Part shown: in pieces, positions 13,865 to 38,889 of the stretch | How the letters are laid out: each line of letters opens with the position of its first letter | Numbering within the stretch: the stretch's first letter is position 1 | Translations under genes and position numbers: made by a program | The notes under the pieces: model-generated | Database searches by the model: none | What the model was told of the DNA's origin: nothing | Seen by the model: the letters and a program-made list of their open reading frames with translations, nothing else | Virus record (IMG/VR): IMGVR_UViG_3300044643_002438 | Location: 1-38,889 of that record | Direction: 5' to 3' (one strand) | DNA: 38,889 nt | Source of the DNA: a virus

Positions 13865-14658
13865 CACAGCCTCTCCTCGATGGTGGCCGACCAGGCGCGC
13901 AGCCGCGGCGTCGGCGACGGGAACGTCACGGGGGCCGCATCGCGCAGCGGGCCGAACACGGCGTCGCGCGCCACATCGGCGCCCGCCGGAAATGGCAGGA
14001 ACAGCAGGTTGCCGCCGGCTTCCGTCGCGCGCTGGATCTCCATCACCAGCGGCCAGACCTCCGCCGCCGCCAGCGACGGCAGGCTGATGGCCCAGGCGCG
14101 GCGCGCATGCCGCAGGTCGAAGAAGCTCTGCCCGCCGCGCGTCCGCACTTCGCCGCGTTCTGCGGCGCGCTGCACGCGGCTGTCATAGCCCAGGTTGCGC
14201 GCCGGCCGGCGCAGCGTGCCGGCGAACAGCTGCGCGGCGCGCAGGCAGGATTCGGGGTTGCCGGGGTCCGCGATGTCCACCCGCACATATCGTGCGGTGA
14301 CGGTCGATCCGGGCAGGTGGATTGCCTGCCGGTAGCCGGGCGCCACCAGGCCGGCCACCACGCCACTATCCGCGATGGCCGTGCCGAAGGCCGGGTCGCC
14401 GGAAAAGCGCACACGCACCGTCGCGGCCGGCGTCAGGTTGGCGTTGAACAGCCCGACCGCATCCCACGCGACCGCCGCGCCCGCGTCCAGCTGCGCCCAG
14501 CCAGCGGTGGTGCCGACAGGCGTTTGCCAGGACCGGCTGGTGGCCCCCTGGTCATTGGCCAGCTGGCTGACATCCAGCGGCTGGATCTGCGCGGATGCAC
14601 TCAGCGTGCCGGTCAGCGCGCGGTTGTCGGTGGGCAGCCCGAAGGCACAATTGCTCAT
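13864..14658 (-). CDS. Distal tail protein (264 aa)
   Basis: Beta-rich protein with a discoidin/jelly-roll-like middle region (WAQLDAGAAVAWDAVGLFNA, STVTARYVRVDIADPGNPES). The C-terminal half has FFDLRHARRAWAISLPSL and EIQRATEAGGNLLFLPFP, resembling tail-tip adaptor proteins found between baseplate and fibre. It overlaps both neighbours by ATGA or TGATG. Role as adaptor or distal tail component is inferred from order. Confidence 0.7.
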   Translation of the reverse strand: MSNCAFGLPTDNRALTGTLSASAQIQPLDVSQLANDQGATSRSWQTPVGTTAGWAQLDAGAAVAWDAVGLFNANLTPAATVRVRFSGDPAFGTAIADSGVVAGLVAPGYRQAIHLPGSTVTARYVRVDIADPGNPESCLRAAQLFAGTLRRPARNLGYDSRVQRAAERGEVRTRGGQSFFDLRHARRAWAISLPSLAAAEVWPLVMEIQRATEAGGNLLFLPFPAGADVARDAVFGPLRDAAPVTFPSPTPRLRAWSATIEERL

Positions 14659-35753: not shown

Positions 35754-36389
35754 TCATACCGGCCCGAGCAGCGGCTGCAGCCGAGACGCCGGCACCCACA
35801 GCGGCAGCACGCATCCGTCGATCTCGACCCGCGCCTGCACCGCGCCATGCCGCCGCCGCACGTCCGAGACCGCGCCGACCTTGCCCGCCGCAGGCCCACC
35901 GACCAGCCGCACTTCCGCGCCGATGGCGACCAGCTCCGCGACAGGATCATGCACCGCCTGGATCTCCGCGCCGCGCCGCGCGATCGCGACGCGCAGCGCA
36001 TCGAGCATCCGTTCCGGCACCGGCGTCGGCCGCAGAGGGTCCGACAAGTACAGCACGCCGCGATCCCGCACCGGATGCAGGCGATTGATCGCCCCCCAGC
36101 CATCAGCGACCACATCAAATGCGGCGAACAGGTAGGGCGCGCAAAGCGGCCGGAGTTCAAGGCCACCCGTCGGCAGCAGCACCGGCACCATCGGCAGGAA
36201 GGTCGCGAAGCCCAGCGCCTGGATGGCCAGCGCGGCGACCTGTTCCTGACGGTTCTTGGCAGCCACCGCATACCAGCGCCGGCCGCCCATGCTCCCGCAG
36301 TCCGCAGGGTTGAGCCCTTGGACCGCTGGTGCAACGGATGCCCGATTCGGAACCGTTTCGTCAAGCGCCATGTTCATGCCCCCGCGCAT
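35754..36389 (-). CDS. NusG-like transcription antitermination factor
   Basis: The 211-residue protein has a NusG N-terminal (NGN) domain at about 38-115: RRWYAVAAKNRQEQVAALAI, QALGFATFLPMVPVLL, RPLCAPYLFAAFDVV, and NRLHPVRDRGVLYLS. A C-terminal KOW-like stretch at about 158-192 reads AEVRLVGGPAAGKVGAVSDV. NusG paralogues such as RfaH bind RNA polymerase and suppress pausing and termination. Located between the replication ATPase and terminase, it is a good candidate activator of the long late operon. The start is uncertain: ATG 36389 (used), 36377 and 36371 are all in frame, each with a weak ribosome site. Confidence 0.83.
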   Translation of the reverse strand: MRGGMNMALDETVPNRASVAPAVQGLNPADCGSMGGRRWYAVAAKNRQEQVAALAIQALGFATFLPMVPVLLPTGGLELRPLCAPYLFAAFDVVADGWGAINRLHPVRDRGVLYLSDPLRPTPVPERMLDALRVAIARRGAEIQAVHDPVAELVAIGAEVRLVGGPAAGKVGAVSDVRRRHGAVQARVEIDGCVLPLWVPASRLQPLLGPV

Positions 36390-36413: not shown

Positions 36414-36625
36414 TGTCCCGCCAATGTCCCGTCTTTGTCCCGCCCTAACCCTATGAATTCATTCAGTTGGGACAAATGGGACAAATGGGACACAACAAAG
36501 GCCCGACATGCACGCGCCTGCGCGCACATATGGGCCCCTTTTCGCCTGTCCCATTTGTCCCATTTGTCCCAACGCAATCGGATCAATGACTTACGGCGGG
36601 ACAATCGCGGGACAATCGCGGGACA
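36414..36625. repeat. Dyad-symmetric array of twelve GGGACA hexamers (origin candidate)
   Basis: Four groups of three hexamers. TGTCCC at 36414, 36425 and 36436 (11-nt period). GGGACA at 36469, 36478 and 36487 (9-nt period). TGTCCC at 36547, 36556 and 36565 (9-nt period). GGGACA at 36598, 36609 and 36620 (11-nt period). All twelve are placed symmetrically about 36519.5. The inner groups form a 27-bp perfect inverted repeat (36466-36492 with 36547-36573). The centre is a GC-rich imperfect palindrome flanked by GGCCC and GGGCC. It lies in the non-coding gap just after the replication ATPase gene, as expected of an iteron origin. Confidence 0.85.
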
Positions 36626-36630
36626 AACCC

Positions 36631-38544
36631 TCATCCGTGGGGGCGCGGGGCGCGCGCGGCCTCCGCCTCCCGCGCCGCGACACGCGCATTCACAGGCGAC
36701 CATCGCGCCTTCAGCGCCAGGACGATCCACTCCGCCCCCAGCCGATGCACCGCCGCCAGCTCCTCGAGCAGCTGCACCGAGGCCGGCGAGCCCTGGTCAC
36801 GCTCGGGCAGCACGCCCGGCGGCAGCACCGTCACGCGCGGCTTGGTATCCCCCACCCATTGCGGATGCTCAGGCACCACCGCCCCAGGCAGGCGCCGCAG
36901 ATCTTCCTTCCATCGTCGCCCGGCCCATTGCGTGCCCTCGAACATCCGCTCGAGCCTCGGGTGCTTATCCGCCACCAGCAGCCACGCATCGCCCCCGCTC
37001 TTGCGCGGCCACGGCGCCAGCAGCAGCCCATGCTCCACCAGGGCGCGGGAGGCTGCGCTGTCCGGGTCCTGCATCGCCAGCCGCACAGCCTTGCCGACCG
37101 TCGGCCGCTCCCCGTTCCACTGCACCTCAAGCGAGCTTTGCATGAGATGCGTCAGGCACGAGGCCGGTCCTGCATCGGGCGCCTGATCGGCTTCGCTCGG
37201 CGTCAGCCATGCGAAGGCCGAGACCTCCTCATCCGCCGCCACGGCATCCAGCACATCGTCGCGCAGCATCATCGCCCGCGCGGCCAGGATCGTGCCCACC
37301 TGGTCCGCCAGGCGCGGCGCACAGCCGCGCGCCAGCATCGCCTTCCGCAGCACCGCCAGATTCGCTTCCAACCGCGGCAGCCCCGCCAGCGCCCGGCCCC
37401 ACAGGGCAGGCGCGCGCTTCCGCATCTCGGCGATCTCGCCCGTCGTGGGCAGCGCCGCCCCACCTTCCGCCCGAGCATGCAGATCCAGCCGGGTGATGCG
37501 CGACGCATCCTGCGGCAGCAGCGACGGCGGCAGCACCGCGCCCAGAAGCGCGGGCGAGAACACCTCGAACCGCTGCGAAGCGCCCCCGGCCGATCCGCGC
37601 ACCGATTGCGCGCCATCCCCGCCCGAAGCCTTCCGCAGCAGCTCCACCACCCGCTGCAGCCGCGCCACGCCGTCCGCATCGCCCTCGGCTTCATCCAGCA
37701 GCAGGGGCAGCGCGCGGCCCGTCAGCATCTGCCGCAGGCCAGCCTCGGTGAAGTCGTTCAGCATCACCGCCAGCGGCGACAGCGCGGCATAGGCCGACAT
37801 CAGCGTCGTCTTGCCGCTGCCCGGCGGCCCCACCACGATGCCATGCGGGCGCCAGCGCACCGCCGCGCCGCACAGATGGGCGGCCCATAGCCCGAAGAAC
37901 ACGCCGGCCTGCGGCTGCCCTCCCCAATTCCAGCGCGCGAACACATCCTCCACCCAGGCGGCATCGGCCGCGCTGGCGGGGGCCTTGGGCCGGCGATCGA
38001 CGGTCACGGCCGGATGCGCGGGCCACAGCGCGCCCCAGTCGCGGAAGCCCGCCCGGCGCCGCTCCCGCTCCGCCCCGCCGCCGACCATCACCAGGTCGCC
38101 CAGATGCAGCGCCAGCGCATCGCCCGCCACGCGCCACACACCAGGGCCCCGGCGCGGCATCGCGGTGTCGAACAGCCCGATCTCGCTGTTCATGCGGATC
38201 AGCTCGCGCGACAATTCCTTGGCCGAGTAATCGCCGGTCGGGTTGCCGTCCTTGTCGTGGGCCGGCGCGATGCCCACCGCCCAGGCCATCTCGCCGCACA
38301 GCAGCACATCCAGATGCCCGCGATTGGCGATCTGCGTCGGGTTTAGCGCGCGTTCCTGCCCGCGCGGATCGAAAAAGTAATGCACCCCGTCCCGATGGCC
38401 GATCGGCGTGACCGGCGGCGGCCGTTCCGTGCGCGCCGGCGCTTCCCCACCTTCGCCCGCGCCGCCGCCATGGCGCAACGTCGTGACATTCGCGGACAGC
38501 GCGGCATTGAAGGCGCCGACATCGTCATCCATCGCGTGGCTCAC
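36631..38544 (-). CDS. Phage replication ATPase/helicase-like protein
   Basis: Taking the GTG at 38544 (GTGA overlap with the previous gene; ATG 38532 is the alternative), the product is 637 residues. Walker A is GPPGSGKT (about 239-246, HGIVVGPPGSGKTTLMSAYA) and the likely Walker B is LPLLLDEAEGD (about 279-289). Further conserved-looking blocks are QRVVELLRKASGGDG and ALLGAVLPPSLLPQDASRIT. The layout resembles the ATPase part of primase-helicase replication proteins found in prophages and plasmids (DUF927/D5-like), with a separate N-terminal region. It should drive phage DNA replication, probably at the adjacent repeat array. Assignment to a specific helicase superfamily is uncertain. Confidence 0.8.
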   Translation of the reverse strand: MSHAMDDDVGAFNAALSANVTTLRHGGGAGEGGEAPARTERPPPVTPIGHRDGVHYFFDPRGQERALNPTQIANRGHLDVLLCGEMAWAVGIAPAHDKDGNPTGDYSAKELSRELIRMNSEIGLFDTAMPRRGPGVWRVAGDALALHLGDLVMVGGGAERERRRAGFRDWGALWPAHPAVTVDRRPKAPASAADAAWVEDVFARWNWGGQPQAGVFFGLWAAHLCGAAVRWRPHGIVVGPPGSGKTTLMSAYAALSPLAVMLNDFTEAGLRQMLTGRALPLLLDEAEGDADGVARLQRVVELLRKASGGDGAQSVRGSAGGASQRFEVFSPALLGAVLPPSLLPQDASRITRLDLHARAEGGAALPTTGEIAEMRKRAPALWGRALAGLPRLEANLAVLRKAMLARGCAPRLADQVGTILAARAMMLRDDVLDAVAADEEVSAFAWLTPSEADQAPDAGPASCLTHLMQSSLEVQWNGERPTVGKAVRLAMQDPDSAASRALVEHGLLLAPWPRKSGGDAWLLVADKHPRLERMFEGTQWAGRRWKEDLRRLPGAVVPEHPQWVGDTKPRVTVLPPGVLPERDQGSPASVQLLEELAAVHRLGAEWIVLALKARWSPVNARVAAREAEAARAPRPHG

Positions 38545-38889
38545 GGCACCGCCCTCCCCAGGCCGAGCAGCCGGGCCAGCCGGCGCGCCGCCTTGGCGGG
38601 CGTCACGTCCCAGCGCCAGGCGGCGAGATCGACCAGGCACGCGCCCTTGCGCGCCAGCGCGGGGCACCACCAGCGATGCGAGGATTCGCACAGGAACAGC
38701 AGCGGCGCGCCGGGCTCCGGCGTCAGGCGGAAGCACAGCCCGGGCGCGCCATGTTCGGGCCGGACCCGCACCAGCGGCACCAGGTGGGGCGCGGCGGCAT
38801 GGGCGACCACCCAGGGCCAGCCCCAGGCCAGCGCATCCTCCGGCGCCGGCAGCCGGATGCCATAGGCCATCGCATCCGCCGGATCGTCG
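38541..38889 (-). CDS. Unknown early protein, 3' part (continues from window start)
   Basis: This is the continuation of the gene starting at 460; the frame is open to the window edge, and the stop TGA is at 38541-38543. Bases 38750-38889 duplicate 1-140. Read alone, an internal ATG at 38870 would give a 109-residue protein, but the joined frame gives 222 residues. The C-terminus contains ESSHRWWCPALARKGACLVD and a basic KAARRLARLLGLG end. Its stop overlaps the GTG of the replication ATPase. Family unknown. Confidence 0.83.
   Translation of the reverse strand, partial: DDPADAMAYGIRLPAPEDALAWGWPWVVAHAAAPHLVPLVRVRPEHGAPGLCFRLTPEPGAPLLFLCESSHRWWCPALARKGACLVDLAAWRWDVTPAKAARRLARLLGLGRAVP
38750..38889. 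repeat. Terminal overlap, right copy
   Basis: Second copy of bases 1-140, with G instead of C at the base matching position 14. On the minus strand this changes a valine codon between GTG and GTC, a silent difference. That fits population variation or a sequencing error at the assembly join. Confidence 0.93.

Follow-up and report, generated by a model that had tools for sequence, protein, structure and literature searches.

The helicases of SaPI, PICI and SCC elements bind, through a C-terminal domain, iterons located directly downstream of their own gene (PMC7581432, PMC6092414), and in SaPI Rep it is apparently a pair of hexamers that recognises them (PMC7581432). In every PICI origin, according to one report, an AT-rich region lies between two sets of iterons (PMC6092414). 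The SCCmec helicase Cch2 is self-loading and uses its C-terminal domain to bind short repeats downstream of its gene, at a putative origin (PMC7581432). In P4, a C-terminal winged-helix domain of the alpha protein, a primase-helicase, binds the origin repeats at ori and crr, and in pRN1 the origin lies 3' of the gene encoding the primase-helicase orf904 (PMC4234260). An iteron origin placed behind a self-loading helicase is a kind already known from satellites and SCC elements.

Here we report a mirrored array of twelve hexamers in the window, by which we mean the entire IMG/VR virus record IMGVR_UViG_3300044643_002438 of 38,889 nucleotides, and we propose that it is a candidate phage replication origin situated directly behind its initiator-helicase gene in a SaPI/PICI-like layout, and bound by the helicase itself. 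We regard this reading as likely. As far as the literature shows, four points would be new: complete phages carry such an origin, its 2 x (3+3) mirror is exact and has IHF-like spacers, the layout outlasts changes of the hexamer, and GGGACA turns up again next to helicases that are not related. Most phage replication origins are unmapped, and a rule readable from sequence, namely mirrored iterons right after the stop codon of a primase-helicase gene, would permit origin prediction for a large number of uncultured phages. With its 2 x 6 symmetry, and with a hexamer that changes along with the helicase, the array makes opposed-ring assembly by self-loading helicases testable. An origin plan that has been called peculiar to satellites would here be present in complete phages, which bears on the exchange of, or competition for, replication modules between the two.

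The record carries a direct repeat of 140 bp with one mismatch at its ends (1-140 and 38750-38889), so the genome is probably complete and circularly permuted with a length of 38,749 bp, though the record is classed as linear. The gene order on the minus strand is helicase, array, NusG-like protein, terminase small subunit, gpA-type terminase large subunit and portal. Judged by its own large terminase and portal genes, the carrier is a full phage, unlike PICI, which are helper-dependent satellites.

The twelve GGGACA hexamers occupy positions 36414-36625 in a 3-3-3-3 arrangement, with starts on the minus strand at 36414, 36425, 36436 (outer), 36547, 36556 and 36565 (inner) and on the plus strand at 36469, 36478, 36487 (inner), 36598, 36609 and 36620 (outer); the successive spacings are 11, 11, 33, 9, 9, 60, 9, 9, 33, 11 and 11 (Table 1). 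All 12 sites pair about a centre at 36519.5 with zero tolerance, while 400 random placements of 12 sites gave at most 6 paired sites (mean 3.7). The two inner arms are reverse complements of each other and form a perfect 27-bp inverted repeat; this repeat, the hexamer positions and the mirror pairing all reproduce what a preliminary description of the locus had claimed. Across 200 shuffles of the window, a 212-bp segment never contained more than 4 hexamers. Over the whole window, the enrichment of GGGACA is not significant (24 copies against 17.6 expected, a number reached in 11 of 100 shuffles), and what is extraordinary about this hexamer in the window is its clustering and symmetry only. 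By GC content the array falls in the lowest 0.5% of all 212-mers of the record, which has 71.6% GC overall; the AT-rich parts of the array are the two spacers, and the GC content of its centre is unremarkable for this genome.

Table 1. Coordinates of the array, its parts and the flanking genes in the window.
Feature	Position	Strand	Remarks
Outer triplet TGTCCC (GGGACA on minus)	36414..36441	-	period 11
27-bp spacer between outer and inner triplets, 41% GC	36442..36468		weaker IHF-like match ATTCATAGGGTTA, read on minus, 2 of 9 mismatches
Inner triplet GGGACA	36469..36492	+	period 9; within inverted-repeat arm 36466-36492
Mirror centre, 65% GC (64.8%)	36493..36546		14-nt alternating purine-pyrimidine run
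Inner triplet TGTCCC	36547..36570	-	period 9; within inverted-repeat arm 36547-36573
27-bp spacer, 48% GC	36571..36597		IHF-like site GATCAATGACTTA, 1 of 9 mismatches
Outer triplet GGGACA	36598..36625	+	period 11; helicase stop codon 5 bp beyond
Helicase, primase/helicase-like AAA+ protein	36631..38532	-	633 aa from ATG at 38532; presumed initiator
Helicase C-terminal part, residues 470-633	36634..37125	-	proposed hexamer-binding domain
NusG-like gene	35754..36389	-	flanks the array opposite the helicase; presumably outside the mechanism

The array lies outside the helicase gene, at its 3' side. This is the position of the origin relative to the initiator helicase gene in SaPIbov1 (Rep) and in the pri-rep-ori of EcCICFT073, and it differs from origins of the lambda O type, in which the iterons lie within the initiator gene. 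The helicase matches two PHROG families, one of DNA primases and one of unknown function (phrog_21086 and phrog_35358, DNA primase), and Pfam recognises its P-loop region only. In its predicted structure (pLDDT 69 overall, 82 for the C-terminal part), the weak but consistent fold matches are to hexameric replicative helicases, namely pox D5/E5, NrS-1, SaPI PriRep1 and MCM; stronger matches are to predicted phage proteins, several of them named helicase, primase or DUF927. The initiators of SaPI and PICI are hexameric AAA+/SF3-like proteins, a class to which the helicase of the window may belong, to judge by these weak fold matches and the P-loop region. A fold search with the C-terminal domain gave no significant match, the hits being a few winged-helix DNA-binding domains (HSF1/2, vIRF-1) with a probability of about 0.1. 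In this respect the window differs from P4 alpha, with which no homology is shown and whose repeats are different. The preliminary description had assigned the array as an origin bound either by the adjacent ATPase or by the protein spanning the record junction. Of this proposal, the iteron-type origin is supported by the present comparisons, and the adjacent ATPase is the most likely ligand, given its helicase-like predicted fold and the nearness of its stop codon; the junction-spanning protein (222 aa, encoded before the helicase) has no PHROG match and belongs to no recognisable family, and its binding of the array is unsupported.

Relatives of the helicase were collected by a protein search blind to the array, near-identical copies being left out, and the six retained (L301-L306) are 35-54% identical to it; the contigs of L301, L302, L303 and L306 were also met through the hexamer, and those of L304 and L305 through the protein alone. 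A 3-3-3-3 mirror array directly follows the helicase stop codon in all six, and the layout is retained where the hexamer is altered, to GGGACG in L304 and to AAGACA in L305. Relatives that kept the ATPase while losing or scrambling the array had been named beforehand as evidence against an origin; none of the six protein-found relatives is of this type. The loop and the outer parts of the array differ among relatives. In the window family the distance between outer and inner triplets is constant at 32-33 bp while the outer period drifts from 9 to 12, and for this reason two binding modes or handcuffing control, which the preliminary description had read from the 9- and 11-bp periods, are unsupported.

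More distant helicases were examined in eight named phages, of which two have clear mirror arrays. Synechococcus phage MinM1 (helicase 31.7% identical) has 11 CTCACA sites within a gap of 235 bp that follows the helicase; its genes, with one for a NusG-like protein among them, are ordered as in the window. In Bdellovibrio phage phi1422 (NC_019525.1), 12 GGTAAC sites follow the DNA primase gp23, and 12 of 12 are exactly mirrored. S-H1 has a partial array, KLER1-1 has unmirrored repeats, and no such array follows the helicase gene in PY223, PBb002, Mwe-JY13 and Dolphis; with four of the eight lacking it, the layout is not universal. The phi1422 array, at about 14006-14311, is unannotated, shows the order 3-1-2 / 2-1-3 and has an AT-rich centre. 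A protein search for helicase relatives in the genome collection found none, a nucleotide search of the array among named phages and plasmids found nothing meaningful, and a DUF927-type scan of viral sequences returned one fragment only.

Within the window family, each spacer between outer and inner triplets contains a 13-bp IHF-like site, WATCARNNNNTTR, located 10 nt from the inner triplet in 14 of 14 half-spacers from 7 family members, with 0-2 mismatches at 9 defined positions. The mismatch sum at this offset is 14; shuffles averaged 69 and never fell below 58. This significance is overstated because the spacer sequences are related. The offset was counted from the inner triplet; counting from the outer end (sum 32) falls out of register in the 26-bp spacers. 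IHF-like spacers were considered as a general trait of GGGACA arrays and rejected, having been found in the window family and not in other arrays. IHF is not known from cyanobacteria, and the recorded host of MinM1 is a cyanobacterium, which counts against the origin reading as proposed here. The centre of the array contains an alternating purine-pyrimidine run of 10-23 nt across the family.

The placement of the array so close to the end of the helicase gene, its retention behind homologues, the change of hexamer under a constant geometry and the fixed IHF-like motif argue for an origin. So do the separate arrays of MinM1 and phi1422, the primase-helicases beside 67 of 112 GGGACA arrays, the helicase-like predicted fold and the published SaPI, PICI and SCC cases. 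In the mechanism that we propose, the C-terminal domain of the helicase would bind the hexamers, and IHF or a similar protein would bend the 33-bp spacer of about three turns, such that outer and inner triplets meet. Each half, comprising outer triplet, bend and inner triplet, would then assemble one hexameric helicase ring, as is suggested by the count of six sites on each side in the window, L304, L306 and phi1422. The two halves could load two opposed helicases; melting of the central segment or of the AT-rich spacers by these would start two forks. Like the SaPI and PICI origins, the array has two iteron sets around a central segment; it differs from them in its exact mirror, in a centre that is not AT-rich, in having each set divided by an IHF-like site into an outer and an inner triplet, and in the iteron itself. 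SCCmec has only three AAGTG direct repeats and no mirror array, and the pRN1 origin is a stem-loop without iterons. As to the contact with DNA, Arg547, in the predicted helix before the wing, is present in GG-type relatives and absent in L305 (AAGACA) and MinM1 (CTCACA), which is suggestive only of a contact with the GG of the hexamer in these sequences; as a general GG contact it was rejected, since it is kept in KLER1-1, where the commonest repeat is CTTACA without GG. A C-terminal domain common to all helicase classes was also sought, and profile comparison detected none.

Several observations count against an origin: the sign of the GC skew, the GC content of the centre, the four distant relatives without an array, and a C-terminal domain with neither a significant fold match nor a profile match between helicase classes. 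The skew breaks sharply at the array in the window (about 35.5-36.5 kb), in phi1422 and in MinM1; its sign is opposite to that of a simple bidirectional origin, with a cumulative maximum instead of a minimum in the window and MinM1. The skew, which had been put forward as a check, gives no help to the origin reading and did not confirm it.

To look beyond the family, we scanned IMG/VR for part of the geometry (TGTCCC N26-28 GGGACA N2-4 GGGACA) and obtained 106 stretches, as compared to 16 with a scrambled hexamer of equal composition. Of 100 GGGACA loci that were counted, about 60 have clusters of 7-26 copies, and control loci never have more than 6. A similarity group of primase-helicases flanks the array in 67 of 112 GGGACA loci at a median distance of 13 bp, its 3' end nearly always towards the array; the next gene family is HNH endonuclease (18/112), and terminase is found at 11 loci with a median distance of 1.4 kb.

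These distances bear on the strongest rival of the origin reading, a packaging site (cos or pac) at which the terminase small subunit would bind the hexamers with IHF bending the DNA between them. In lambda cosB, terminase sites are combined with an IHF site, and the likeness extends to repeated sites with an IHF-like site between them near terminase genes; packaging is the strongest rival because the terminase genes lie about 1 kb past the array in the window family, and other arrays also have terminase genes nearby. The family closest to the array across loci is nevertheless the helicase and not the terminase, arrays of this type in distant relatives follow the helicase, the phi1422 array follows the primase with terS 7.1 kb away, and a one-way process would need no exact two-fold mirror. 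We consider this explanation unlikely.

Control of transcription between early and late genes, by a DNA operator or by an RNA hairpin acting with the NusG-like antiterminator, is less probable still. The array adjoins the NusG-like gene, where replication genes give way to packaging genes, its arms could pair as RNA, and in Halomonas loci an array is located at the 5' end of the helicase gene too. The NusG-like gene, however, was not detected in L301-L303, where the array is kept, and the RNA hairpin serving this gene, suggested in the preliminary description, is unsupported for that reason. Four strand-alternating groups at fixed helical distances suit DNA binding, the loop and outer parts vary among relatives, and an Rfam search with the array gave no match. 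Least probable, by a narrow step, is a partition, incompatibility or copy-control site for a separate phage or host protein, which would fit GGGACA beside unrelated helicases as a shared accessory binder and the ParB-like genes of some array-bearing phages, but no second protein family reaches a comparable number of loci, and the hexamer varies from phage to phage in the window family, as expected of a phage-encoded partner.

Returning to the origin reading, the primase-helicases flanking GGGACA arrays have unrelated architectures (VapE, PrimPol with AAA_25, Toprim with AAA_25, and D5_N/DUF5906), and the pattern-found Halomonas loci have phrog_1139-type primases. A stricter pattern retrieved contigs named Halomonas, Actinomadura, Duncaniella, Planctomycetaceae and Rhodovibrio. 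Loci chosen by their helicase group into 31 lineages at 60% identity. In 22 of these a hexamer of some kind occurs at least five times after the stop codon; the commonest is GGGACA, in 7 lineages, a preference to which some bias attaches, as helicases taken from array loci were used to gather the sample. Among the listed titles and abstracts of a literature search for the hexamer at an origin, none was relevant. We tentatively suggest, as a possibility we hold to be rather doubtful, a phage origin design in wide use: helicases of several unrelated classes, in hosts of several phyla, would share a single hexamer (GGGACA, core GGACA), the six sites of each half would load one helicase hexamer, and the mirror would give two forks, in which case the origin code would be more conserved than the initiator.

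Other arrangements of the hexamer were also observed. Four Halomonas-group genomes (L123, L126, L130 and L138) have GGGACA arrays at both ends of the primase-helicase gene, about 1.9 kb apart. Three loci (L048, L059 and L114) contain 19-26 very dense copies each without the 3-3-3-3 order. In L122, L127, L135 and L136, which come from one Bacteroidota bin (Duncaniella sp. MAG), several arrays are distributed over several contigs, some of them kilobases apart on one contig.
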